Below, one piece after another: positions 2,244 through 25,451 of a stretch of 25,451 nucleotides of DNA (positions within the stretch are counted from its first letter, which is position 1; each line of letters begins with the position of its first letter). The position numbers and the translations under genes were made by a program. Source of the DNA: a virus; IMG/VR virus record IMGVR_UViG_3300006104_001288, positions 1 through 25,451 of that record; one strand, 5' to 3'. The notes beneath the pieces were generated by a model. The model worked only from the letters and a program-made list of their open reading frames with translations, searched no databases and had not been told where the DNA came from.

Positions 2244-4103
2244 TCAATTTAATCGATCCAATGACCAGATTTTATTGACAAGGGATTTGATGAGCGCACG
2301 ACGTTCAATTTGCTCTTCTCTCCCAAAGTTTTGGTATGACTTAAATGGATGTTTGTTTGACTCAATGAAGTTGGTAAATTGAGGTTGGTGCTCATATGCT
2401 TGAGCTGTAAGGCTGGCAGCCAATAGATTTTGTTTGGCGTAATGCGGGGATTTGGCTTCATAAGGCTTATCTTGATAGCTGCGATTTACATCGGCAGGCA
2501 ATAGAAGCAATCCTGCAATGTGATTTCGCCAGCGTTGAAATTCTTCTGCAAATGCAAAAGTATCTTTGAAGGGTTCAAAGTTATCTGCCCAGATATGTTC
2601 AATATCTAAAGTATTCTTACCCTCACGATTTACGTACTTATCAAACAAGTCAGGTCGTCCCGCTCCAACCTCGACATATGATGTCATGCGGGCGAGGATA
2701 TGATAAATGTAACGACGGCTAAATTGGTTTAGTCTAAGATCATCAATGCCTTCGCGACCTTTGGCTTCATGACCATCAAAATTAACTTCATCACTATTGA
2801 GGCGCTCTTTAAGGATTGCTTTAAGTTCCTCTAAAGGTTTTTGACGTATTTCTCTACTGAGGAGGTACATTGCATAGTTGGTAGTGCTATAACCTACGCG
2901 GATATAGTTCACAACACGGCGCATAAGCCAAATATCTAAATAGGTAGCAACTGCCTCAATTTTTGCTTTTACGGTTGCGTCATCATCAGTTGGGATAAGT
3001 GGGGCCAAAAGAACTGTGTTTTGCCATGTGAATTCGTTATGGGCGTTATAAAAAACTGACTCTAATCCTGGGGTGTAATTTTTGCTGGCAGCTAGAATGA
3101 TTTCGTAGGCTTTGGCAAAGAAAGGGAAATCTCTATTTATTAAGATGAGGTTGTTTTCTTCTTGATCCCAATTTAGCTTAGAGCTATTGTCCCTGGCCCA
3201 GCGATGAAAGGCCGAGCCGATCAACTCCCAATCCTTATCGGTAGAGCCTGCCTTACGCTCGCGAATGGTTTCAGCATATTGCGCTCTTAGCCAAGCCTTA
3301 ATGCAGGCAGAATCTCGCTCAGCTTCATGCTCATCTCCCCAGCTAATGAGATTTAGTACCTGCTGCTTCCAAAGCTGATTTGAGCTACGTCGCTTATCTG
3401 GATCGCTTATTGGTGCCAGTAGATAAGCTTTAAGCATATCTACCGGGCTTAAAGGCTTGCCTCGGTCATTCATCGTCTCAAAGATGGCGTAGGCATAGTT
3501 ATCGTTATCAGTGGCAATCTCGATAAGGCCAACCTTATTCATGAGCCAGTAAATAAAGTGGGGTAGGGCATCGCCCAGTTCTTCCGCAAGATCCTGCTTT
3601 TCAATATCTTGGTAACGGGCAAACATAGTCTGGATGGACTCTTCTTTACCATCAGGGGTAAATTGGGCCCCATTGAATAGGGCTTCGATTACGGGCAAAC
3701 GCTCTTGTATGTCTAGGTTAAAGCTTGGCTGGCCAAAGTTATCGGAATAGATTAAAGGGGCAAGCTGACCATCTAAGCCTAATTCTAGGTCTTTAGCAGT
3801 TCTGTAGAGGTAAATAAGCAAAAGAGTTAGGGAGGTAACCCTTTGTTGACCATCTACAAGGTAGCTCTTGCCATTTCGCTTGCTAACAATGATCGAGCCA
3901 AGGAAGTAACTCTCATAGGTGCTAACTTTTTGAGTTGTGTCACCGGCTTGGTAGCAGCTTAAGAATTTTTCCTGTAAATCAGAGATAAGCTCAACGATAT
4001 TTTTCTCTTCCCATTTATATTCCCGCTGGTATTCATCTATTGAGAAGGATTGGCTCTGGAGAAGCTCTTTTACGGTTCGATAATGGGGGGTAATTGTGCT
4101 CAT
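2244..4103 (-). CDS. GmrSD-like DUF262/DUF1524 restriction nuclease
   Basis: This 619-residue protein is a fused GmrS-GmrD type enzyme, the family that cleaves modified (for example glucosylated hydroxymethyl-cytosine) phage DNA in an NTP-dependent way. The N-terminal DUF262 domain shows the SIDEYQREYKW segment near residues 21-31 and the diagnostic DGQQR at 84-88. The C-terminal DUF1524 HNH-type nuclease shows DIEHIWAD near 500, then RNHIAGLLLLP and a Y..K....Y pattern. Length fits the family. The ATG at 4103 is preferred over a TTG at 4112 because GAGA lies just before it. It is convergent with the helicase remnant and diverges from hsdM, so a foreign-DNA nuclease and a methylation-based system share a 145-bp control region. 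Substrate specificity cannot be read from sequence. Confidence 0.88.
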   Translation of the reverse strand: MSTITPHYRTVKELLQSQSFSIDEYQREYKWEEKNIVELISDLQEKFLSCYQAGDTTQKVSTYESYFLGSIIVSKRNGKSYLVDGQQRVTSLTLLLIYLYRTAKDLELGLDGQLAPLIYSDNFGQPSFNLDIQERLPVIEALFNGAQFTPDGKEESIQTMFARYQDIEKQDLAEELGDALPHFIYWLMNKVGLIEIATDNDNYAYAIFETMNDRGKPLSPVDMLKAYLLAPISDPDKRRSSNQLWKQQVLNLISWGDEHEAERDSACIKAWLRAQYAETIRERKAGSTDKDWELIGSAFHRWARDNSSKLNWDQEENNLILINRDFPFFAKAYEIILAASKNYTPGLESVFYNAHNEFTWQNTVLLAPLIPTDDDATVKAKIEAVATYLDIWLMRRVVNYIRVGYSTTNYAMYLLSREIRQKPLEELKAILKERLNSDEVNFDGHEAKGREGIDDLRLNQFSRRYIYHILARMTSYVEVGAGRPDLFDKYVNREGKNTLDIEHIWADNFEPFKDTFAFAEEFQRWRNHIAGLLLLPADVNRSYQDKPYEAKSPHYAKQNLLAASLTAQAYEHQPQFTNFIESNKHPFKSYQNFGREEQIERRALIKSLVNKIWSLDRLN

Positions 4104-4248
4104 TTTTCTCAAAATAACTAGTTATAGTTAATAGTCTAATCTGTTCGCTCTAAGTTAAACTAAATAGATCAATATTAATATAGCTAAGAATAAATTAATA
4201 ACCGTAAAAACCCGGCTAGACGGGGTTAGAAAGCTAAAAATAGTAAAT
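4104..4248. promoter_or_regulatory. Shared control region between GmrSD gene and hsdM, with 12-bp palindrome
   Basis: This AT-rich divergent intergenic region must hold both promoters. A perfect palindrome ATAACTAGTTAT (4114-4125) lies 10 bases from the GmrSD start and could be an operator. A weak hairpin (about 4209-4227) lies upstream of hsdM. I cannot assign clear -35/-10 boxes, and hsdM has no strong Shine-Dalgarno sequence. Confidence 0.4.
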
Positions 4249-5982
4249 ATGAGCGAGCAAAATTTATCAAGCTTAATTTGGTCTGTAGCCGATCTTTTAA
4301 GAGGGGACTATAAGCAGTCTGACTACGGCAAAGTCATCATGCCTTTTACTGTATTGAGAAGGCTGGATTGCATTCTTGAGCCGACAAAAGCACAAGTTCT
4401 GACTGAGTATCAAAAGCGCACAAAAGAGGGGGTTGACCCGACTCCATTCCTAAACAGAATTTCAAAACAGTCCTTTTATAACTGCTCACCATTGGACGTT
4501 AATAAAGTTCTTGCTGACCCAGCTCATATTAAATCGAACTTGCTAAATTACATCAATGGATTTTCAAGTAACGTCAATGATATTTTTGAGCGCTTTGAGT
4601 TTGACAAGCAAATCGAAAAGCTCGATGAGGCTGGCTTGTTATTTATGGTCACCAAGAAGTTTTCCGAAGTTGACCTGCACCCCAATGTTGTTAGTAATGC
4701 TGGCATGGGTACACTGTTCGAAGAGTTAATTCGTAAATTTGCTGAGCTTTCCAACGAAACGGCCGGTGAACACTTTACTCCGCGCGAAGTAATTCGACTT
4801 ATGGTTGATTTGTTGCTGCACGCTGACAGCGAAGCATTATCGAAGCCAGGGGTCATTAGAACTATTTACGATCCAACTGCTGGTACAGGCGGTATGTTAT
4901 CTATTGCCGAAGAGTACTTAACTGGGCCGAATGGTTTAAATCCTGACGCAACCTTAATCGTTCATGGCCAAGAGTTAAACCCAGAATCCTATGCAATTTG
5001 CAAAGGCGATATGCTGATTAAAGGTCAGGATATTTCTAATATTAAGTTTGGGGACACACTTAAGAATGATGGACATCCTGGTGCAAAATTCGACTATGGA
5101 ATTGCTAATCCACCATTTGGTGTGGAATGGAAAAAATCCGAAAAAGAGGTAAAGCAAGAGCATGAGCGCTTAGGTTTTGCAGGACGCTTTGGCCCAGGTT
5201 TGCCGCGCATCTCAGATGGAAGCTTTCTTTTCCTATTGCATCTAATTTCAAAAATGAGGGAGCCTGAAAAGGGGGGCGGAAGGGTTGCAATTGTATTCAA
5301 TGGTTCGCCTTTATTTAGTGGTGCTGCTGGTTCCGGTGAATCTGAAATTAGAAAATGGATTATTGAGCAGGATCTACTTGAGGCGATAATTGCCCTACCT
5401 ACTGACATGTTTTACAACACTGGAATTCCAACTTTCATTTGGATTCTTTCTAATCGCAAACCAATCGAGCGAGAAGGAAAAATACAGTTAATTAATGCTG
5501 TTGAATTCTATCAAAAAATGCGAAAAAATCTGGGGGATAAGCGAAAAGAGTTGAGTGATTCTGATATTGAAAAGATTGGCAAATTGTATTTTGATTTTAA
5601 AGAATGCAAGGAATCAAGAATATTTAGATCCTCTGACTTTGGTTACTCAACTATCACAGTTGAGAGGCCGTTGAGGGATGATGCTGGTAATGTTGTTATT
5701 TCAACAAAAGGCAAATCAAAAGGCGAGCCTCAGTCAGATGCAAGTTTAAGAGATACTGAAAATATTCCACTCAATGAGGATATACAAGAGTATTTCAATC
5801 GCGAAGTATTGCCGCATGCAAAAGATGCCTGGATTGATAAATCAAAGACAAAGGTTGGCTATGAAATTCCATTTACTCGTCATTTTTATGAGTACCAGGA
5901 GCCTCGATCCCTGACCGAAATTGATAATGATCTCAAAAAACTAACCACTGAAATTCAACTGCTACTAAACGAGGTTGCCTAA
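4249..5982 (+). CDS. hsdM: Type I restriction-modification DNA methyltransferase subunit
   Basis: HsdM (577 residues) methylates adenine in the target sequence using S-adenosylmethionine. It is the core of both the modification complex (with HsdS) and the restriction complex (with HsdS and HsdR). The N-terminal HsdM helical domain (residues 1-130, beginning LSSLIWSVADLLRGDY) is followed by the N6-methylase fold, with AdoMet-binding motif I DPTAGTGG at 208-215 and catalytic motif IV NPPF at 287-290. GEHFTPREVIRLM (about 173-185) is also typical. The length is normal and the frame intact. The stop codon overlaps the hsdS start by one base, so the two are translationally coupled. Confidence 0.97.
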   Translation: MSEQNLSSLIWSVADLLRGDYKQSDYGKVIMPFTVLRRLDCILEPTKAQVLTEYQKRTKEGVDPTPFLNRISKQSFYNCSPLDVNKVLADPAHIKSNLLNYINGFSSNVNDIFERFEFDKQIEKLDEAGLLFMVTKKFSEVDLHPNVVSNAGMGTLFEELIRKFAELSNETAGEHFTPREVIRLMVDLLLHADSEALSKPGVIRTIYDPTAGTGGMLSIAEEYLTGPNGLNPDATLIVHGQELNPESYAICKGDMLIKGQDISNIKFGDTLKNDGHPGAKFDYGIANPPFGVEWKKSEKEVKQEHERLGFAGRFGPGLPRISDGSFLFLLHLISKMREPEKGGGRVAIVFNGSPLFSGAAGSGESEIRKWIIEQDLLEAIIALPTDMFYNTGIPTFIWILSNRKPIEREGKIQLINAVEFYQKMRKNLGDKRKELSDSDIEKIGKLYFDFKECKESRIFRSSDFGYSTITVERPLRDDAGNVVISTKGKSKGEPQSDASLRDTENIPLNEDIQEYFNREVLPHAKDAWIDKSKTKVGYEIPFTRHFYEYQEPRSLTEIDNDLKKLTTEIQLLLNEVA

Positions 5983-7289
5983 TGAGTGCTTCCAAATTTA
6001 AAAGATATCCAACATATCAAAACACAGATCAAAGGTGGCTAGGTGAGGTCCCTAAACACTGGGGTCTAAAAAGGGTTGGATATTATTTTGAAGAGCGTAG
6101 AGAAAAGGTCAGCGACAAAGATTTTAGTCCATTATCAGTTACTAAAAACGGTATAGTTCCTCAACTGCAAAATGCTGCAAAGTCTGACGATGGAGATAAT
6201 AGAAAGCTGGTAAGGAAAGGTGACTTTGTAATAAATAGTAGGTCTGATAGAAAGGGTTCATCTGGTTTATCTCAGCTTGATGGTTCAATTTCACTGATTA
6301 ATACTGTAATAACTCCATCTTCTGAGCTTAGAGGTGCATATATCCATCATTTGTTTAGAAGCACTCCATTTCAGGAGGAGTATTACAGATTTGGTAAAGG
6401 AATCGTCGCTGATTTATGGAGTACAAATTATTCTGAATTTAAAAATATTGTTATTCCAATTCCATCAACTGATGAGCAATTGAAAATAGCCAATTTTCTT
6501 GATATAGAAATAGCAAAAATTGACGATTTGATTCATAAACAGCAGCTACTAATTGATCAGCTAAGACTTAAAAAGTATGCAGAAATAAGCTCAGCCGTTA
6601 CTGTTGGTCTCGAAAAGCCCAATAAAAAAATATATATTTCAGATTGGTTGACAGCTATACCCGCCCACTGGGAGGTTAAAAAACTAAAACATATCGCAAA
6701 TATATTTGCTAGTAATGTTGATAAGAAAACATTAGAAGGCCAAAAATCAATCAAACTTTGTAACTATACGGATGTTTATTACCACGACAAGATAACTGAG
6801 GAATTGGAATTCATGTGCGCTTCTGCGACGGAAGATCAAATTGTTAAATTTGAACTTAAAGCTGGTGATGTGATTATTACAAAAGATTCTGAAACACCTG
6901 ATGATATTGGGATTGCTGCCTTTGTTCCAAATGATATAAAAGGCGTTATTTGTGGCTACCACTTATCTATTGTGCGCCCGAAACAAGATATTGATGGCTC
7001 TTTTTTAAAGCGATTATTCGATTCAAATTATGTAAAGTCATCTTGGATGGTTTTGGCTAATGGTGTTACTAGGTATGGACTTGGCCAATATGCCATAGGA
7101 AATTTAAAGGTTCCGGTCCCACCGATTGATGAGCAAATTAAGATTGTGCAATATTTAGATGGCTTGGCTGAAAGCATTGATTCTTTGATGAATAAATCTT
7201 TGAAATCAATTGAAATACTTAAAGAGCGTCGTGCTAGCCTCATTTCGGCTGCGGTAACTGGAAAAATTGATGTAAGAGAGCTGGCTTAA
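5982..7289 (+). CDS. hsdS: Type I restriction-modification specificity subunit
   Basis: HsdS (435 residues) reads the bipartite DNA target and positions the methylase and nuclease subunits. The two-repeat layout is visible. Each target recognition domain starts with a W..(I/V)P.HW segment (residues 19-27 and 222-230). Each ends in a conserved helical spacer, first around 163-205 (DEQLKIANFLD onward) and second near the C-terminus (DEQIKIVQYLD to RRASLISAAVTG). The variable halves between differ strongly, as expected for recognition of two different half-sites. It starts on the last base of hsdM, and hsdR follows after 15 bases. The target sequence cannot be predicted here. Confidence 0.96.
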   Translation: MSASKFKRYPTYQNTDQRWLGEVPKHWGLKRVGYYFEERREKVSDKDFSPLSVTKNGIVPQLQNAAKSDDGDNRKLVRKGDFVINSRSDRKGSSGLSQLDGSISLINTVITPSSELRGAYIHHLFRSTPFQEEYYRFGKGIVADLWSTNYSEFKNIVIPIPSTDEQLKIANFLDIEIAKIDDLIHKQQLLIDQLRLKKYAEISSAVTVGLEKPNKKIYISDWLTAIPAHWEVKKLKHIANIFASNVDKKTLEGQKSIKLCNYTDVYYHDKITEELEFMCASATEDQIVKFELKAGDVIITKDSETPDDIGIAAFVPNDIKGVICGYHLSIVRPKQDIDGSFLKRLFDSNYVKSSWMVLANGVTRYGLGQYAIGNLKVPVPPIDEQIKIVQYLDGLAESIDSLMNKSLKSIEILKERRASLISAAVTGKIDVRELA

Positions 7290-7304
7290 TAAGAAAGAAA
7301 ATAA

Positions 7305-10300
7305 ATGGCTATCCACAATGAGATCGAATTCGAGAATGACCTTTGCGATTATCTAAAGTCGCATGGATGGCTGTATTCAAGGGATGATGTTGGCTATGAT
7401 GTAGAGCGAGCGCTTTTCCCTGAAGATCTTTTAGGGTGGATTCAGGACACACAACCTGAGGCTTGGGATCGGCTTAAGAAGTTTCATAATGGCAAAACAG
7501 AATCCGTTGCTCTTGATCGACTTGTTAAGGTCATGGAAACAGAAAGCTCGTTACATGCTCTTAGAAATGGTTTTAAAGCTGCTGGTGCTGGTGCGGGAGG
7601 TTTTGATGTAGTGCAGTTTGCCCCTGCCCATAGTTTTAATCCTGAAACAAAGGCTGCATACGACAAGATTCGCTTGAGGGTCATGCGTCAAGTGCATTAC
7701 TCAGCACACAACCGAAACTCTATTGATCTTGTTCTGTTTGTGAATGGTATTCCTGTAGCTACGCTTGAGCTAAAGACTGATTTCACTCAAGGTATTGATG
7801 ATGCCAAGAACCAGTACAAACTAGATAGAAATCCTAAAGACCCTAAAACTAAGCACGTTGAGCCTTTGCTCCAGTTTAAGCGTGGTGCTTTGGTGCACTT
7901 TGCAGTTTCTACCTCCGAAGTTTGGATGACCACTAAATTAACTGGCATGGATACCTATTTCCTGCCATTTAATAAAGGCTTTAATGGCGGCAAGGGCAAT
8001 CCACCCAACAAAGAAGGCTATCAAACAGCCTATCTTTGGGAAGAGATCTTTCAAAAAGATCAGTTTCTTAAGATTCTTGAGAGCTTTATTCAAATAGAGC
8101 GTAAAGAGGTGGTAGAAAAGAATGGAGAGAAGAAAGTCAAAGAGACTTTAATTTTCCCTAGATACCACCAATTAGATGCAGTAACTAAATTAGTGACTGC
8201 CGTTAAAGAAGAGGGTGCAGGCAAAAACTATTTATTCCAGCACTCAGCAGGCTCTGGTAAGTCCAATACCATTGGTTGGAGTGCTCATAAGTTAGCTACC
8301 ATCCATGATTCTAAAGATAATAAGATTTTCGATACTGTCATTGTTATTACGGATCGTACCGTGCTTGACGAGCAGCTACAAGATACCATTAACCAGTTCT
8401 CGCATACTCCAGGTTTAGTAGTTTCAATTGATTCTGAGAATGGCTCTAAATCAGGTCAATTGGTTGAGGCCTTAAAGAGTGGTGCAATGATTATTGTTGT
8501 TACATTACAAACATTCCCATTTATTTTGAGGGAAATTAGAGAGACAACAGCCCTAGCAAAGAGAAATTTTGCGGTGATCGCTGATGAGGCTCACTCATCT
8601 CAGACTGGCGCTTCTGCTGGAAAATTGCGAAAGGTATTGAGTTCTGAGCAGGTTGAAGTAGATGAAGGTGAGACATATGAAGAGTATCTAGAACGTGAAA
8701 CTGCTAGTCGTTCACTACCTCCTAATGTAAGTTTCTTAGCATTTACCGCTACCCCTAAGAGCAAGACATTGGAGTTGTTTGGCAGAAAAGATAGCAATGG
8801 AATACCAAGGCCCTTTCATCAATACACCATGAAACAAGCCATTCAAGAGGGCTTCATTCTTGATGTGTTACAGAATTACACTCCCTATAAGGTGGCTTAC
8901 AAGCTGGCTCATAACGGAAAAGATTGGGATGATAAGGATGTAGATAAGTCAGAGGCTGCGAAGACAATCGCTAGATGGGTAAGACTTCATCCCCATAATA
9001 TTTCTCAAAAAGTACAAATCATTGTTGAGCATTTCAGGGCGAATGTAGCCTGGAGGATTAATGGCGAAGCCAAGGCCATGGTCGTTACTGATTCAAGGCA
9101 AGCCGCAGTTCGCTACAAAATTGAGATGGATAAGTATATCCAGACTCAAGGGTATGCAAAAGAACTGGCTACTTTGGTTGCTTTTTCGGGCGATGTCGAA
9201 GACCCTGAGTATGGACTTGAAAAGTTCACCGAAGGGAATATGAATAAGCAGCAAAAAGGCATGGGCATTCGTGAGGCATTCTCTACAGAAGAGTTCAAGG
9301 TCTTGATAGTTGCCAATAAGTTCCAAACCGGGTTTGACCAGCCATTATTGATGGCGATGTATGTTGATAAGCGTATTGATGGTATTACAGCAGTTCAAAC
9401 CTTATCAAGATTGAATAGGACAACCTTCGGGAAAGATATTACCTTTGTACTCGATTTTGTAAACGATACAGAAACTATTCGATTGGCATTTGAACCTTAT
9501 TACGCTACTACTGAGTTGCTGGCCACTACAGATCCTAATATGGTCTATGACCTAGAAACCAAGCTTGGAAAACAAGGTATTTATTCCGAGCAAGATGTGA
9601 AAAATTTCATTGAGGCTTACCGAAAACCGAAGGCTAGGCAACAAGATATACAGGCGGCATTAAGTCTGCCGGTATCTAGATTTAATGGCTTGTTTACCGA
9701 TGCGGAAGAGAAGGATGATAAAGAGGAGTTGGATCGCTTGGCTCTCTTTGAGAAAGACTTAGGAACCTTCTGCCGTTTCTATGACTTTCTCTCCCAAGTT
9801 GTGAACTATGCGGATACAGCCTTAGAGGCTAAGTATTTATTCTTTAGGCATTTGGGACCACTTATAAAGCCTGAAAATCGTCGCCTCCCAATAGATTTAG
9901 CAGGCTTAGAAATGACACACTATAAGCTTCAGGCTGGAGCAGCCCAGTCTATTAAATTGGCTGGCGATGTTCCCATTCCTGGGGGCGGTGGAGCGGGAAG
10001 TGGCACATCAAAAGATCCTGAGGTTGTGAGATTGGAGGAACTTCTGAATAAGTTAAATGACTTATTTCCAGAGATTACCGATACCGACCGTATTAATCTA
10101 TTTAATAATGCCAAGACCAAAATGTTGGATAGTGAAGAGCTACGAAAACAGGCCCATGCTAATACCGAGGATCAATTTATACAATCTCCAAAATTTGAAG
10201 AGGAGATGTTAGATAGCCTTATATCCAGCATGGATAGTCATCGGGCTATGACCACCAAGCTATTGAATGACGATAAGCTCAGGGCAAGATTTAAGGATTT

Positions 10301-10352
10301 ACTTGCCAGAAGTGTATTTAAGGATATCAATCGACCTGGGGCGGAGAAATGA
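7305..10352 (+). CDS. hsdR: Type I restriction-modification endonuclease/translocase subunit
   Basis: HsdR (1015 residues) pulls DNA through the complex using ATP and cuts far from the unmethylated site. The N-terminal PD-(D/E)xK nuclease shows D141 and E155-L-K157 (IDLVLF... and LELKTD). The SF2 translocase has Walker A SAGSGKS (about 314-320), the DEAH box at 427-430, motif III FTATPK, and motifs V and VI in ANKFQTGFDQP and QTLSRLNRT. All key residues are present and the length is normal. The C-terminal helical part follows a glycine-rich linker (GGGGAGSG). It is the third gene of an hsdM-hsdS-hsdR operon and its stop overlaps the next start as ATGA. Confidence 0.97.
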   Translation: MAIHNEIEFENDLCDYLKSHGWLYSRDDVGYDVERALFPEDLLGWIQDTQPEAWDRLKKFHNGKTESVALDRLVKVMETESSLHALRNGFKAAGAGAGGFDVVQFAPAHSFNPETKAAYDKIRLRVMRQVHYSAHNRNSIDLVLFVNGIPVATLELKTDFTQGIDDAKNQYKLDRNPKDPKTKHVEPLLQFKRGALVHFAVSTSEVWMTTKLTGMDTYFLPFNKGFNGGKGNPPNKEGYQTAYLWEEIFQKDQFLKILESFIQIERKEVVEKNGEKKVKETLIFPRYHQLDAVTKLVTAVKEEGAGKNYLFQHSAGSGKSNTIGWSAHKLATIHDSKDNKIFDTVIVITDRTVLDEQLQDTINQFSHTPGLVVSIDSENGSKSGQLVEALKSGAMIIVVTLQTFPFILREIRETTALAKRNFAVIADEAHSSQTGASAGKLRKVLSSEQVEVDEGETYEEYLERETASRSLPPNVSFLAFTATPKSKTLELFGRKDSNGIPRPFHQYTMKQAIQEGFILDVLQNYTPYKVAYKLAHNGKDWDDKDVDKSEAAKTIARWVRLHPHNISQKVQIIVEHFRANVAWRINGEAKAMVVTDSRQAAVRYKIEMDKYIQTQGYAKELATLVAFSGDVEDPEYGLEKFTEGNMNKQQKGMGIREAFSTEEFKVLIVANKFQTGFDQPLLMAMYVDKRIDGITAVQTLSRLNRTTFGKDITFVLDFVNDTETIRLAFEPYYATTELLATTDPNMVYDLETKLGKQGIYSEQDVKNFIEAYRKPKARQQDIQAALSLPVSRFNGLFTDAEEKDDKEELDRLALFEKDLGTFCRFYDFLSQVVNYADTALEAKYLFFRHLGPLIKPENRRLPIDLAGLEMTHYKLQAGAAQSIKLAGDVPIPGGGGAGSGTSKDPEVVRLEELLNKLNDLFPEITDTDRINLFNNAKTKMLDSEELRKQAHANTEDQFIQSPKFEEEMLDSLISSMDSHRAMTTKLLNDDKLRARFKDLLARSVFKDINRPGAEK

Positions 10353-18013: not shown

Positions 18014-18604
18014 TTATTGCCTAGCAAATAGCATTAAGGGCGCGATATCGCCGTTATCTGCGGCGCGTAGAGCTGATAAGTAGTTTTGGCGTGTAGTACC
18101 TGGGGTGGCAATTGAAGGGTTGCCACCCCAAGAAAATCTTTTACCACCAAGGCTGACAATCAGAGCATCTGCTATCAATCGTGCATGACGACCATTGCCA
18201 TTTGGAAACGCATGGATCAGCACTAACTGATGATGAAACCGCACTACGATTTCATCAATGGGCATCGTTTTATTTTCAATTTGATAAGCAGTGTTATCTA
18301 AAAGATTTTTGAGGGCAACAGCAATTTGAGTCCAATCAATGCCAATGCTCTTAGCGCTCTTTCTGAATGTGCCAGCCCACTGCCATGTTTGATTAAACAT
18401 GCGGCTATGCAAATTACGTACCAACCCCTCATTCAGACTTTGAATGATCTTTTGACGAGCAATCCAATCCGCACCTTCGACAATATTGAGTTCTTCCCAA
18501 GCATTTAATTCAGCTTGAGTCTTAATATGCGCTGGAATGAGACCAAGAGCTTCATCCGGATCAATCGGAGTAGCTCCTGGTGGATATTCAAACTGCATCA
18601 CCAT
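18014..18604 (-). CDS. Mobile mystery protein B (Fic-domain protein)
   Basis: This 196-residue Fic/DOC-fold protein is the typical partner of mobile mystery protein A (TIGR02613). The Fic core motif is HAFPNGNGRHAR at 131-142, with catalytic H131 and the GNGR loop. The usual acidic D/E before GNGR is N135, as in other members of this family, so AMP-transfer chemistry may be altered. It starts four bases after an AAGGA site and overlaps the mobile mystery A gene by seven bases. It sits antisense in the middle of the head module, only one base from the scaffold gene's end, so it is late-acquired cargo. Confidence 0.88.
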   Translation of the reverse strand: MVMQFEYPPGATPIDPDEALGLIPAHIKTQAELNAWEELNIVEGADWIARQKIIQSLNEGLVRNLHSRMFNQTWQWAGTFRKSAKSIGIDWTQIAVALKNLLDNTAYQIENKTMPIDEIVVRFHHQLVLIHAFPNGNGRHARLIADALIVSLGGKRFSWGGNPSIATPGTTRQNYLSALRAADNGDIAPLMLFARQ

Positions 18605-19056
18605 AGATTCCTTCTAGGGCCGTCCAAAATCTCTTTTGCTAGTAGTTGAAGTTGCTTTTCACTGGCAGACTTATCCACTGACTGATTCTCAAGACTCATC
18701 GAATGAGAAATAGGACGGAGTCTTTCACGCGCAACCGTAATAGCGCGATCTTCCAAGATTTCTTCTAAAGATTTGCGTGGCACTAGGGTGTATTGCAATT
18801 CGCAATCTAAGGCGCTAGCCAACTTGCGCAGGCTAGCTAAAGTGATCTTTTCATCAGCCTCAGCCTTTTCAAGCTTAGCAATGCTATGTGGCGTAACACC
18901 GAGCTTTCGAGCCAGCGCAGAAGCCGACATACCCAAAGATTCGCGAATAGCCTTAACCCACCCATTTCCTGGGCGGCTTGGGGGGCGAGCATCCCTTAAC
19001 TTAGTAAGGGCAGAATCCATTTGATGGAGTTGTAAGTTAGCGAATTTCTTGTTCAT
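18598..19056 (-). CDS. Mobile mystery protein A (XRE-type HTH regulator)
   Basis: The 152-residue protein has the TIGR02612 layout. An N-terminal leader (about 1-30) with LHQMDSALTKLRDARPPSRPGNGW precedes an XRE helix-turn-helix (about 33-90) with SASALARKLGVTPHSIAKLEKAEA, then a tail. Such proteins accompany Fic protein B in mobile DNA and likely act as autorepressor/antitoxin-like partner, which is inference. Its promoter region carries three palindromes with exact 33-bp spacing. The ribosome-binding site (AGGT) lies within the closest one, so binding could block both transcription and translation. Confidence 0.88.
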   Translation of the reverse strand: MNKKFANLQLHQMDSALTKLRDARPPSRPGNGWVKAIRESLGMSASALARKLGVTPHSIAKLEKAEADEKITLASLRKLASALDCELQYTLVPRKSLEEILEDRAITVARERLRPISHSMSLENQSVDKSASEKQLQLLAKEILDGPRRNLW

Positions 19057-21126: not shown

Positions 21127-21663
21127 ATGCTTCCAATCATCACCTCTCTAGTGCAAACCTTGGCCGTCAATGGCCTTGGGCTACTTGCGGGCGCGGTCCA
21201 AGCCAAAGGGAAGGAATTCATTGAGAGCAAGATTGGTGTGCGCATTCCGGAGAATCCCAGTCAGGAAGATTTAATCAAGCTCAAACAATTAGAGATTGAG
21301 CAAGAGCAGCTTCTGTTGCAATACACCCTTAAGCAAAAAGAACTTGAGATAGAAGAATCAAAGCTACTAGCTGAGATGCATCGAGCTTCACAAGAGAATA
21401 TTACACACCGATGGCAGTCCGATATGGGTAGCGATTCCAAGCTATCCAAGAACATCAGACCGGGAACACTTGTTTACATTCTGACTGCTTATCTTCTATT
21501 CGCACTTCTTTCAGCAATGGGGATAGACATCAATGAAGCCTATGTAAAGCTGCTAGGCGAGTGGGGGCAGCTAGTCATGCTCGCTTACTTTGGCGGAAGG
21601 TCTGTTGAGAAGATCTTTGAGATGCGCATGCATAGCTCAAATAAAAAAGAAGAGCAGGCATGA
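21127..21663 (+). CDS. 3TM-type phage holin
   Basis: I take the ATG at 21127 as the start (178 residues), because the 35 residues upstream in this frame lie in the structured GC-rich gap and do not look like protein. The N-terminus has a hydrophobic stretch (about 4-24), then a long charged coil (45-95, KQLEIEQEQLL...). The C-terminal part has SKLSKNIRPGTLVYILTAYLLFALL, and after a short loop YVKLLGEWGQLVMLAYFGGRS at about 139-159. RP..L and YFGGRS.EKI are typical of the three-transmembrane holin group also found in gene transfer agents. It should open the inner membrane for lysis. The endolysin gene follows with an overlap. Confidence 0.8.
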   Translation: MLPIITSLVQTLAVNGLGLLAGAVQAKGKEFIESKIGVRIPENPSQEDLIKLKQLEIEQEQLLLQYTLKQKELEIEESKLLAEMHRASQENITHRWQSDMGSDSKLSKNIRPGTLVYILTAYLLFALLSAMGIDINEAYVKLLGEWGQLVMLAYFGGRSVEKIFEMRMHSSNKKEEQA

Positions 21664-21998
21664 GTGGTTTAGTGGCAGAACAAGCAGCATTCCTTATTGA
21701 TGTTAGTCGCCTCATCCAATTTGCAACTGCAGAAGGATGGGTGGTTACAGGAGGTGAGCTGTGGAGGTCTCCAGAACAGCAGGAGATCTACTTTAAAAGC
21801 GGTAGATCTAAGACCATGAATAGTAATCATTTGAGACGCTGCGCTATAGACCTGAATTTCTTCTGGAATGGAAAGCTAGTCTGGGATAAAGAGCTCATTC
21901 GTACTGTAGGCGAATACTGGGAGAGCCTAGACCCTAAGAATAGATGGGGCGGAAATTTCAAGGGTTTTGTGGATGTACCGCATTTTGAGAGGCTATAG
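21660..21998 (+). CDS. M15-family peptidase endolysin
   Basis: This 112-residue zinc peptidase belongs to the VanY/Ply-like M15 group that cuts peptidoglycan peptide cross-links. Metal ligands are visible as H57 (in NSNHLRRCAID), D64, and H108 (in DVPHFER), with general base E110 and R36 near the substrate pocket. The usual SxHxxG is N-x-H-L-R-R here; the glycine is replaced. The start overlaps the holin stop (ATGA), a compact lysis cassette. There is no signal peptide, so export relies on the holin. Confidence 0.88.
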   Translation: MSGLVAEQAAFLIDVSRLIQFATAEGWVVTGGELWRSPEQQEIYFKSGRSKTMNSNHLRRCAIDLNFFWNGKLVWDKELIRTVGEYWESLDPKNRWGGNFKGFVDVPHFERL

Positions 21999-22083: not shown

Positions 22084-22836
22084 ATGGCTAAGCCTTTTAA
22101 AGACTATGAACGTCCACCAATTACCGAGGCGGTAATTGCTTTAAATTTCAAATCTAGCATTGGATTTGAAGATTTAACTTCAGTTAGTAAAAAATATCTA
22201 AAAGATTACCCCCAAACAGCCTCTGTTTCTAATGTTCATTTAGCGGTGGATATGAGCAGTTCGGGTAATGAAGGCCCTGTCTCAACTAGTATGAATCAGC
22301 AGAACGGCTTGCGGCTTTCATCCAATGATATGACTGAGATAATGGTCTTGTGGCCACAATCATTTGCTATCTCTCAGTTGGCCCCATATGTAGGTTGGGA
22401 AACTTTTTTAAATCGGTTTATTAGGGACTGGAAAAGATATAAGCGCCATATTGGTCAAAAAGAAATTTCGCGCATTGGTGTTAGATATATCAATCGAATT
22501 GATATTCCCGTTGCTAACGATATTGTGGAGCACGAGAAGTACTTAAATGTATTTCCTAAGCTTCCAGCCTCTTTTACGCCTTTAACTGCGTTTGCAGTTC
22601 AGACAGCATTAAAAATTCCTGATATTGGTTGTGATTTGTTATTGAACTCTGCAGCTGCACCATCACCAGTTCTTGACCATGCAAGTTTTATGCTAGATTT
22701 AGATATTTACAAGTCAATAGATCTACCTCAAAGTGACCAGCAGATTATTAATTTGCTTAATAGCATCCGCCAAAAAAAGAACCAAATTTTTGAGCAATGT
22801 ATTAGCAATCGCGCAAGAAAGCTTTTTAGGAAATAA
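22084..22836 (+). CDS. TIGR04255 family protein
   Basis: The 250-residue protein starts with YERPPITEAVIALNF, close to the family's PPL-EAV signature, and contains RIGVRYINRIDIP (about 136-148), matching the usual R.GLRY.NRI segment. The remainder alternates strands and helices, ending in a basic SNRARKLFRK helix. TIGR04255 members are sporadically distributed in bacteria and mobile DNA and have no proven function. It heads three overlapping genes between the phage lysis genes and the integrase. Its stop overlaps the next start by one base. Confidence 0.8.
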   Translation: MAKPFKDYERPPITEAVIALNFKSSIGFEDLTSVSKKYLKDYPQTASVSNVHLAVDMSSSGNEGPVSTSMNQQNGLRLSSNDMTEIMVLWPQSFAISQLAPYVGWETFLNRFIRDWKRYKRHIGQKEISRIGVRYINRIDIPVANDIVEHEKYLNVFPKLPASFTPLTAFAVQTALKIPDIGCDLLLNSAAAPSPVLDHASFMLDLDIYKSIDLPQSDQQIINLLNSIRQKKNQIFEQCISNRARKLFRK

Positions 22837-23525
22837 TGAATAGCCCCTTAAAAAAGATTTTGTCTAGTCAGGTTGAAAATGTAATGTCAGCAAAAGATAG
22901 GGCTGGACTTTCTTTTTTTATTTCTCAGGCTGCGGATCAGTGGGGTAATTCAATATATGGCGATTTAAATTCAAATTTAATTAGCTCAAATACTAGCCAA
23001 TTTCAAAAGACCATTCATAACCTTACGAGCATAAGGTCCCCGTCAGCTCAAGTGGTGAGCAACAGCAAATCCTTACCCGAGAAAATTTATGATGCTACAG
23101 CTGAAGTAAAAATTCTTACTGCGCAGGTTGCTATGTATTTAACTCGCTCTTGGAGGGATCGAGTATTTAAACAGATTGATCATTTGCACGATCTTAGCGA
23201 ATGGGATTTAGATGCAAATCCCATTCAAAAAGAATCTTTTAGAACTTTTTTAAAGGCAATGATTGCTCTGAAACCTACCGAACACCCCGGATTGGGTCTT
23301 TCTGATAAGGGCTTTCTACTTGCAGCATGGATTTCGGATAATAGTCGCTTAACCACAGAATTTTTGCCTAACGATCAAATTAAATGGTCTCTTTCGGTTT
23401 GGGTGGGGTCCGATGATGAGGTAGATCGCGCGGCAGGAATTACCAGTACTGCAAGACTTCTATCTCGTCTATCACCTTATACACCTGAGAAATGGTTTTA
23501 TGACAAAGCCACAAAAAAGAGGTGA
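22836..23525 (+). CDS. Unknown cassette protein 2
   Basis: Not recognised. The 229 residues appear largely helical, with no membrane segment or known catalytic motif. Notable are SPSAQVVSNSKSLPEKIYDATAEVK in the middle and KWSLSVWVGSDDEVDRAAG near the C-terminus. It is coupled to the TIGR04255 gene (TAATG) and its end overlaps the next gene by 26 bases, so the three products are made together and probably act together. Base composition is AT-rich like its neighbour. Confidence 0.65.
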   Translation: MNSPLKKILSSQVENVMSAKDRAGLSFFISQAADQWGNSIYGDLNSNLISSNTSQFQKTIHNLTSIRSPSAQVVSNSKSLPEKIYDATAEVKILTAQVAMYLTRSWRDRVFKQIDHLHDLSEWDLDANPIQKESFRTFLKAMIALKPTEHPGLGLSDKGFLLAAWISDNSRLTTEFLPNDQIKWSLSVWVGSDDEVDRAAGITSTARLLSRLSPYTPEKWFYDKATKKR

Positions 23526-23952
23526 TTTAATACCCGACGATGATGAGGTTGTCCGACATGTTCCTTATCGAAAAATAATATTCGATCAAAATGAGAACAT
23601 TGTCGGAATTTTTCCTCATGCCTATCATTTGCGGGATGGTGAGACACATTTATCTGTTAGCTGGCTTAACTACCATAGCGGAACAAGGCTAGATAGATTA
23701 CGAGGCGTTCTAGTCGGCCTGAGAGCATCAAAAGATATCGGTGCTAAAAGTGCTCTAACTTCCGGTTATGTTTTATCGTTAAAAAATGTAGCCCAAAAAG
23801 CTGCAAATGTGAATTTACGTTTTTCTTATGCCCCTAGCGTAGAAGATAAAGCACATTCATTTATTCATAATATAAAAAATGATGACAATGACTTACTTGA
23901 GGCATTGGCTGCGGAAGGATTTACCAACATAAAGCAGGTCCGTGATCTTTAG
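23500..23952 (+). CDS. Unknown cassette protein 3
   Basis: The 150-residue protein opens with DLIPDDDEVVRHVPYRKI and then AYHLRDGETHLSVSWLNYHSG (about 41-61). The P...VVR.V, AF.LR..E..LSV.WLE pattern recalls a widespread uncharacterised bacterial family, from memory. No catalytic motif is assigned. It starts within gene 2 of the cassette, and the frame ends just 17 bases before the convergent integrase gene. Confidence 0.65.
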   Translation: MTKPQKRGDLIPDDDEVVRHVPYRKIIFDQNENIVGIFPHAYHLRDGETHLSVSWLNYHSGTRLDRLRGVLVGLRASKDIGAKSALTSGYVLSLKNVAQKAANVNLRFSYAPSVEDKAHSFIHNIKNDDNDLLEALAAEGFTNIKQVRDL

Positions 23953-23969
23953 AAAATTGAATTTACCGG

Positions 23970-25307
23970 TTACGCTACTTTCTTTATTAACTCAATAACC
24001 TCAGCCCCATTCTGCGCATGAGTAAGCTTCTCGCCCCACCATTTGTATAGCTCGATCCTTTGTATGAATCTTTCACCACGATCATAGGCCCTTACAACCT
24101 CATTCCCATGTGCGTGATCGAGTGCTAACTCAACAACATCTTGCTCAAACCCATTGTCTCTGGCTAGTGTAGAGAACGCGCTACGCCAGCCGTGGGGTGC
24201 ATGCTTTCCTGACATATTGAGTGTTACCCGATAAGCTTTCTCAAGACTCTCACGACTGATGAATTGATTGCCTGTTGGCGATGGAAATACATAACCTTTT
24301 CTCCCAAAAAGCTTCCCCCATTGCTTTAACTCTGCAGTAATTTGCGGGCCTAGAGGAATTCGATGATCGCCAATACGTGTGTGATCTTTCATCTTGGCGC
24401 GAGGTATTACCCAGATCGGAATATCTGCATCAAGATCAAACTCTTTCCACTCAGCTTGCACAACGTTACTAATACGCGTTGCACTAAATGCGAGAAGGCG
24501 ATGAGCAGCTCTCACTGATGGTGAAAGACGTGCAGCTTCTGCTGCGCGTAATAGGGCGCCTAAAGAATTCCAATCAAGTAATGCAGGCATGCGACCATTA
24601 GTTTTCTTTCTAGGAAGAATTTCTTTTACGGGCGCAGCAGAATTAATTTCACATAAGCCTTTTGCTTGCGCATAACGAAAGACGCCATTCAGGTGCTGCA
24701 AAATTCTTGTGGCAGTTTCCAGAACATCTCGCTTATTGATTGTTTCAATAGCCTTAGCGATGACTGAGGGAGTGATGCTTTCAATGGGAAGTTCGCCCAG
24801 GGCTTTATAAATATCCCTCTCAAATGCCCTTTTAGACTTGGTATGGTGGGTTAGGCTCCATTCTTTCTCTTTCATGGCGAACCATTCCTCGGCCACAGCC
24901 CTGAAAGTACTCTCAGAATGGGCTGCCGCCTGGGCCATCGTTATACGCCTAGCAACTACTGGATCGCGGCCCTTATTCAACGAGGCTTTAACTTCCTTTA
25001 GTTCAAGTCTTGCCTGAGCCAAACTGCTCTGAGGATAGGTGCCGATGGTGTAACTTTTTTCTTTGCCTTCGATGCGATATTTAATTCGCCATGAAGCAGT
25101 TTTGGCACGAGTGATAAGTAGATAAAGACCTTGTCCATCCGCAAGCTTGCTGCCAATAACTTTGCGGGCGATAAAACTTTTAATCCCTTTATCCGTAAGC
25201 TTTCCAGACGTACCCCCAACCATGTTTTTTACCCAGTTCGATTTTGCTTGAATACCCCCAATAATACCCCCAGAGGATTTGGCTAGAGCTGGATTTAGAA
25301 AGACCAT
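23970..25307 (-). CDS. Tyrosine-type site-specific integrase
   Basis: This 445-residue protein is the recombinase that moved the island into ssrA. The arm-binding DUF4102-type N-terminus (GKLTDKGIKSF... to YTIGTYPQSSLAQAR, about 35-120) is followed by a core-binding helical domain (135-225) and the catalytic domain. R278 (SATRISNV), H372 and R375 (HGWR), H398 (LDH) and nucleophile Y408 are all present, so it looks active. The ATG at 25307 has an AAGG five bases before it; the ATG at 25223 (MVGGTSGKLTD) gives a more usual length. The extra 28 residues are coded by DNA containing arm-type repeats. Confidence 0.95.
   Translation of the reverse strand: MVFLNPALAKSSGGIIGGIQAKSNWVKNMVGGTSGKLTDKGIKSFIARKVIGSKLADGQGLYLLITRAKTASWRIKYRIEGKEKSYTIGTYPQSSLAQARLELKEVKASLNKGRDPVVARRITMAQAAAHSESTFRAVAEEWFAMKEKEWSLTHHTKSKRAFERDIYKALGELPIESITPSVIAKAIETINKRDVLETATRILQHLNGVFRYAQAKGLCEINSAAPVKEILPRKKTNGRMPALLDWNSLGALLRAAEAARLSPSVRAAHRLLAFSATRISNVVQAEWKEFDLDADIPIWVIPRAKMKDHTRIGDHRIPLGPQITAELKQWGKLFGRKGYVFPSPTGNQFISRESLEKAYRVTLNMSGKHAPHGWRSAFSTLARDNGFEQDVVELALDHAHGNEVVRAYDRGERFIQRIELYKWWGEKLTHAQNGAEVIELIKKVA
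25211..25272. promoter_or_regulatory. Right arm-type integrase sites (three TACCCCCA motifs)
   Basis: TACCCCCA occurs at 25211-25218, 25253-25260 and 25265-25272. The last two have the 12-bp period found at the left end and also share the bases that follow. They lie inside the 5' part of the integrase frame, where they spell GGIIGG- and GGT-like codons, which argues that the DNA itself is selected. Confidence 0.65.
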
Positions 25308-25363: not shown

Positions 25364-25408
25364 GGACTGTTACATACTTCAAAATGGTGGAGTCGGCGGG
25401 AATCGAAC
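25332..25408. repeat. Right attachment-site repeat (attR)
   Basis: The first 59 bases are identical to 41-99. Beyond them the copies align with one indel and a few substitutions up to the T loop. This copy completes the working tmRNA gene. The crossover should lie within the shared acceptor/T-arm region or its flank. Confidence 0.9.
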
Positions 25409-25451
25409 CCGCGTCCGCAAATCCTCTACAGCAAGTTCTACATACTTAGTC
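25385..25451 (-). ncRNA. ssrA: Transfer-messenger RNA, 3' end (partial)
   Basis: On the minus strand the last 67 bases read as a tmRNA 3' end: the helix strand, then GCGGACGCGGGTTCGATTCC as T arm, the acceptor half and an encoded CCA at 25385. The gene continues beyond the window, so the tag peptide is not visible. tmRNA rescues stalled ribosomes; the 3' end is a common integration target and is restored here by the island. Confidence 0.93.

Follow-up and report, generated by a model that had tools for sequence, protein, structure and literature searches.

The window analysed here is the whole of IMG/VR record IMGVR_UViG_3300006104_001288, which represents a virus (prophage) and is 25,451 bases long. 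Three open reading frames on its plus strand, here called g1, g2 and g3, lie between an endolysin gene on one side and a phage integrase gene on the other (Table 1), in agreement with a preliminary description of this DNA that had placed them in a cargo slot between the lysis genes and the integrase. The frames and their coordinates were recovered as described there, with overlaps of 1 base between g1 and g2 (TAATG) and 26 bases between g2 and g3. The trio is also AT-rich, as had been claimed, with a G+C content of 0.38-0.39, whereas the window as a whole has 0.43 and the phage structural, lysis and integrase genes have 0.46. Across 200 dinucleotide shuffles of the trio stretch the longest plus-strand frame reached 118 codons, compared with the 250, 229 and 150 observed, and chance frames were rejected as an explanation.

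Table 1. Module genes and context genes in the prophage window
Feature	Position	Strand	Basis and remarks
g1, TIGR04255 protein, 250 aa	22084..22836	+	NCBIfam E 2e-36
g2, 229 aa, proposed partner (antitoxin/adaptor)	22836..23525	+	synteny, class C homology
g3, 150 aa, proposed effector/toxin	23500..23952	+	alignment, hhalign to class C gene 3
Endolysin, peptidase M15	21660..21998	+	PF13539 E 4e-10; upstream border of cargo slot
Phage integrase	23970..25307	-	Pfam Phage_int_M, Arm-DNA-bind_3, Phage_integrase; downstream border of cargo slot
GmrSD type IV restriction enzyme	2244..4112	-	PF03235 E 6e-35, PF07510; context, outside module
Type I restriction-modification, hsdM-hsdS-hsdR	4249..10352	+	PF02384, PF12161, PF01420, PF04313, SWI2_SNF2; context
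Fic/Doc protein	18014..18604	-	PF02661 E 4e-11; context

At the opposite end of the prophage, the GmrSD gene directly adjoins a complete type I restriction-modification operon (2244-10352), and the C-terminal part of a SNF2-type helicase is encoded ahead of these genes (1299-2192). The Fic/Doc gene and an adjacent open reading frame of 152 residues (18014-19056, minus strand) sit amid the structural genes and are likely a second toxin-antitoxin-type cargo. The end of the window (approximately 25385-25451, minus strand) resembles the 3' terminus of a tmRNA gene (GGGTTCGATTCCCGCCGACTCCACCA), which makes ssrA the probable attachment site of the integrase; ARAGORN detected no complete tmRNA gene at the window end because the record stops there.

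The g1 product matches the NCBIfam model TIGR04255 over its full length and above the curated cut-off (126.1 bits against a cut-off of 30, E 2e-36, residues 8-248 aligned to model positions 2-251). This model, sporadTIGR04255, names just a sporadic protein of unknown function and contains neither the three-gene architecture nor the partner classes described below. Neither TIGR04255 nor DUF7689 is mentioned in the 5.39 million open-access papers searched. The AlphaFold model of g1 (pLDDT 94, pTM 0.88) adopts a duplicated beta-alpha-beta4-alpha fold of the kind seen in TBP and AdoMetDC. Foldseek gave trypanosome AdoMetDC/prozyme (E 8e-5) and TBP (E 3e-3) as the best matches in the PDB, with low TM-scores, so that kinship is suggested at the level of the fold only. 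Residues P12, Y102, R134-Y-I-N137, P142, D205 and F236 are invariant among 78 homologues and may mark a binding groove. No SecB-family match to g1 was found in Pfam or NCBIfam, and SecB was absent among the 50 Foldseek matches listed; a Panacea (DUF4065) domain was absent too, and Pfam returned no family at a meaningful E-value.

Neither g2 nor g3 has a match in Pfam, NCBIfam or PADLOC, and PHROGs yielded no significant one; the preliminary description had given one gene of the trio a sporadic-family signature and left the other two unassigned. None of the three proteins matched a family of the PADLOC 2.0.0 defence models at E <= 1, and Foldseek gave no usable match for either g2 or g3. The N-terminal part of the g2 protein is disordered and poorly conserved, whereas its C-terminal part, of helical and beta structure, is conserved; in the model of the g2 homologue from locus L013, residues 10-50 have a pLDDT below 50, after which the value is about 95. 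At this locus g2 and g3 occur naturally in frame, separated by a single stop, and we modeled them in tandem with the stop read as Gly, purely as a folding device; the resulting pTM of 0.53 is too low to establish an interface between g2 and g3. The g3 family (gene 3 of class A, defined below) carries the motif R-x-V-P ... AF-x-LR-x2-E-x2-LSV-x-W ... N-x-AH-x-x-I, and in the class A alignment R19 and S52 of g3 are invariant and R45, E48 and L51 nearly so. No PDB or viral fold match to g3 was found at E <= 0.001, and comparison with known toxin families gave no hit in Pfam, NCBIfam or PADLOC and none by sequence or fold in the PDB. The protein may have an enzyme-like fold in which Arg19 and Ser52 are the invariant residues.

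Single-protein scans with g1, g2 or g3 across viral and genome contigs gave no matches. A search based on four aligned sequences, g1 and three plasmid relatives, retrieved 80 bacterial and 7 viral loci. The same trio, which the preliminary description had proposed to seek in other genomes, was present at about 30 other loci, where homologues of g2 and g3 invariably follow immediately 3' of the TIGR04255 gene, in the same order and nearly always overlapping. The hosts are Polynucleobacter (with a g1 relative of 75% identity), Gallionella, Polaromonas, Rhodoferax, Methylobacter, a Bathymodiolus symbiont, Nitrosomonas, Rhizobiales including Rhizobium, and Caulobacter, together with virus contigs. 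Over these loci the spacing ranges from -1 to -164 bases between g1 and g2 and from +3 to -169 between g2 and g3, overlaps that come out somewhat too long, since each frame was called from the first possible start codon. Pairwise distances are correlated between the genes (g1-g2 0.85, g1-g3 0.73, g2-g3 0.83; Mantel permutation maxima 0.45-0.55), which indicates that the trio is inherited as a unit. Among 300 Burkholderiales genomes, TIGR04255 was found in 28, g3 in two and g2 in one, gene 2 of G109 being recognised by a local profile, and every g2 or g3 match stood beside TIGR04255. The class A g2/g3 pair is thus a recurring matched pair that was never split in these genomes, and homologues standing alone in housekeeping contexts, the finding named beforehand as counting against a new system, were not encountered there. 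A phage morphogenesis or housekeeping role for the trio was discarded, relatives and contexts of that kind being absent.

TIGR04255 genes that are not followed by g2 and g3 carry two other small genes at the same positions. Two co-directional genes lie 3' of TIGR04255 in 118 of 130 loci, with gaps of at most 30 bases in 117 and 116 of them, although calling from the first start codon overstates overlap here too; of the 12 exceptions, 8 are truncated at a contig end. The same layout holds at 49 of about 52 loci in an additional sample, for the most part taken evenly from Bacteroidota, Gammaproteobacteria and Chloroflexota. TIGR04255 is therefore gene 1 of a three-gene operon at 167 of about 174 evaluable loci, in many phyla and on plasmids, and in ten annotated plasmid regions two genes likewise come after TIGR04255, the second of them often annotated as helix-turn-helix. 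The window trio follows this rule, with two co-directional, tightly spaced genes 3' of g1. We regard the architecture of the module and its conservation as virtually certain. Partner class tracks the g1 tree, with 17 changes compared with a mean of 71 after shuffling, so the pairs have been long kept, yet repeatedly exchanged. Gene 1 is the constant component; genes 2 and 3 are co-inherited, usually overlap, and are swapped as matched pairs between clades. The earlier picture of a single isolated system must accordingly give way to one in which the window trio is a subclass of a modular, toxin-antitoxin-like family defined by TIGR04255. Stops or frameshifts interrupt the TIGR04255 gene at four loci (L015, L046, L171 and L198); at L015 and L046 genes 2 and 3 are still open, which may bear on the dispensability of gene 1.

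Genes 2 and 3 fall into at least eight swappable classes. Class A is that of the window trio, with the R-x-V-P motif family as gene 3, and gene 3 of class B is DUF7689 (PF24738, E 3e-40), in which Cys and His residues are conserved. Both genes of class C profile-match their class A counterparts in hhalign (gene 2, Prob 94, E 1.3e-7; gene 3, Prob 96, E 2.3e-9, a likeness that was absent at first and emerged only once the class C alignment had been enlarged), and no characterised toxin was found among the gene 3 members of classes A and C. HEPN RNases are expected to bear an R-x4-6-H motif; gene 3 of class D, a HEPN protein by a match just under the cut-off (PF05168, E 2e-4), has R..DYxD instead and so may not be a nuclease. 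Classes E and H share one gene 3 superfamily (Prob 97.7) with invariant QG...CD residues, the QGD...CDL family, and gene 2 of class H contains a helix-turn-helix. In class P, gene 3 encodes H-x-G-I...LTCATF proteins, which their motif suggests are Cys-His papain-like. Other third genes, each a single case or a small set, encode a zeta toxin (L003, PF06414, E 3e-12), MazF/PemK proteins (L122, PF02452, E 8e-9; L162-L164, PDB mRNA interferase, E 2.6e-5) and a PIN protein (L180, with relatives on cyanobacterial plasmids, one of them annotated PIN). The gene 3 position is filled, then, by unrelated proteins, several of which belong to established toxin families.

The PIN case also bears on gene 2. 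The C-terminal part of L180 gene 2 can be aligned, at 33% over 63 residues, with a small gene that precedes a Planktothrix PIN gene, the position expected of an antitoxin; this Planktothrix pair is homologous to the C-terminal part of L180 gene 2 and to its gene 3. The pair is carried as a two-gene unit on a plasmid (L215, 2217-2917), between BREX pglX and DISARM drmA. Conservation of gene 2 in classes A, B, C and H is lowest over its N-terminal third (0.18-0.25 versus 0.27-0.43 for the middle third), and a few gene 2 N-termini are common to modules with differing gene 3 (L092/L177, E 1.3e-5; L027/L033, E 0.002). We infer a two-part gene 2 protein, in which the conserved C-terminal domain would meet the gene 3 effector and the divergent, disordered N-terminal tail would meet TIGR04255. 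An N-terminal stretch of hydrophobic and small residues (for example LSAALVVSMGFAANA) is present in gene 2 at L099, L104, L149-L151, L156, L161, L180 and L202, sometimes followed by a helix-turn-helix; it is possibly a docking or membrane segment.

The content of the third slot also speaks to which gene acts. TIGR04255 could itself be a catalytic effector, AdoMetDC-like, or a TBP-like binder of nucleic acid or ligand, with genes 2 and 3 as regulators or specificity factors, a possibility suggested by its invariant polar residues (R134, N137 and D205) and by the weak fold similarity to AdoMetDC/prozyme and TBP. However, variation and known toxins are found in the third slot and not the first, a pattern typical of the effectors of polymorphic systems, and we consider an effector role for TIGR04255 improbable. 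Gene 3 is, to judge from these patterns, probably the effector or toxin.

TIGR04255 is sporadic, occurring in 9%, 5%, 10% and 8% of the genomes of four large bacterial groups but absent from all 14 model genomes, a distribution that may explain why it has been overlooked. Modules occur on plasmids beside integrases, PIN and RES genes, and many copies are chromosomal. CDL-class modules are found on plasmids of clinical isolates (L149, L150 and L156, from Klebsiella, Pseudomonas and Acinetobacter); 5,426 E. coli genomes searched at distant-DNA sensitivity held no close relative of the Klebsiella plasmid module. The neighbours of other copies include defence-type genes, namely type III restriction (L013) and Lamassu LmuB (L029), as well as type I methylases (L012, L040 and L051). 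On a Rhizobium plasmid, a multiubiquitin/ThiF/DUF6527 operon lies just 5' of the module (L158, 1147-3444). Known defence genes were nearby at 9 of 87 loci as against 0 of 18 in a small control set, a difference that is not significant, and PADLOC tallies in the control regions were dominated by generic kinase-type models.

The suggestion that the trio is a possible undescribed defence system fares unevenly against these results. It is a genuine mobile three-gene cassette that no PADLOC model matches, it resides in a prophage with several defence genes, and known toxin families occupy the third slot; the excess of known defence genes around the modules, however, fell short of significance. A shield for the phage against host defences, neutralising for instance host toxins or restriction, would suit the accessory position adjoining the integrase in a prophage, but most relatives reside in bacterial chromosomes and plasmids, 50,697 phage records gave no match and TIGR04255 was present in just seven viral contigs, and slot 3 holds toxins, not inhibitors; we therefore judge counter-defence very improbable. 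Plain addiction or maintenance fits nearly as well as an anti-phage role. Taken in its pure form, as a tripartite toxin-antitoxin that stabilises plasmids and prophages without dedicated phage sensing, it would explain the carriage on plasmids and prophages beside integrases, the toxin families of slot 3 and the lack of a demonstrated defence enrichment; yet many copies are chromosomal, a constant third component of 250 residues exceeds the needs of addiction, and the other cargo of this prophage is defence, so that we think this pure form rather unlikely.

On balance we lean toward reading the trio as class A of a widespread, modular TIGR04255 three-gene system of toxin-antitoxin-like character. 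In such a system gene 3 would be the toxic effector and the variable subunit, gene 2 its cognate partner (antitoxin/adaptor), and TIGR04255 a shared sensor or stabiliser under which the gene 2-gene 3 pair stays silent. A trigger, either phage infection or loss of the element, would disturb this silence, free gene 3 and bring about growth arrest. In this prophage the module would most likely serve abortive infection or superinfection exclusion, and maintenance of the element would be a by-product; an anti-phage use is plausible, and we rate it an even call. More tentatively, and with some doubt, we speculate that a tripartite immune/addiction class not recognised before is built around TIGR04255 as its hub, and that this TBP/AdoMetDC-like sensor and a two-part gene 2 allow almost any toxin to be plugged in, including undescribed effector families. 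Those meant are g3 (R/S enzyme-like, R...LSV...NxAH), QGD...CDL, DUF7689 and other Cys-His papain-like proteins (HiGi...LTCATF), which makes at least four candidate toxin families in the third slot. Were TIGR04255 such a universal hub, the genes downstream of it would be a handle for new toxin and antitoxin families, and the modules would test whether third components other than chaperones can act as phage sensors. The MazF and PIN variants are the cases in which the part played by the constant subunit could be read most directly.

Among known systems, the logic of toxin, partner and third component is that of toxin-antitoxin-chaperone (TAC) systems. In CmdTAC (PMC11618068) the chaperone senses phage capsid and frees the effector, and TAC and the TIGR04255 module share the number of genes, the provision of one third component for a toxin-antitoxin pair and the proposed logic. 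By likeness to the CmdTAC chaperone, the chances that TIGR04255 acts as a sensor or stabiliser seem roughly balanced. The third component of TAC is a SecB-like chaperone, whereas TIGR04255 is unrelated, with AdoMetDC and TBP as its nearest folds, and the absence of a SecB-like chaperone sets the module apart from TAC; its gene order (control, partner, effector) also differs, and the range of proteins in slot 3 is wider. Partner swapping is known from the hyperpromiscuous Panacea antitoxins (PMC10440598), and in the Panacea/NetFlax systems, as here, one constant protein family is combined with many unrelated toxin domains (PMC10440598, PMC8832971); the terms 'TIGR' and 'three-gene' are absent from the text of the NetFlax paper. 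Panacea systems, however, have two genes and their constant domain is the antitoxin, whereas TIGR04255 is an added first gene and it is gene 2 that changes along with the toxin. Some third-slot proteins belong to the toxin families of type II toxin-antitoxin systems (MazEF/PemK, PIN/VapBC and zeta), and in one module gene 2 is similar to the gene at the antitoxin position of a PIN pair, but the TIGR04255 module has an additional constant first gene, and g2 and g3 of the window fall outside these families. What appears to be new is the constant component, together with several of the effector families with which it is combined.
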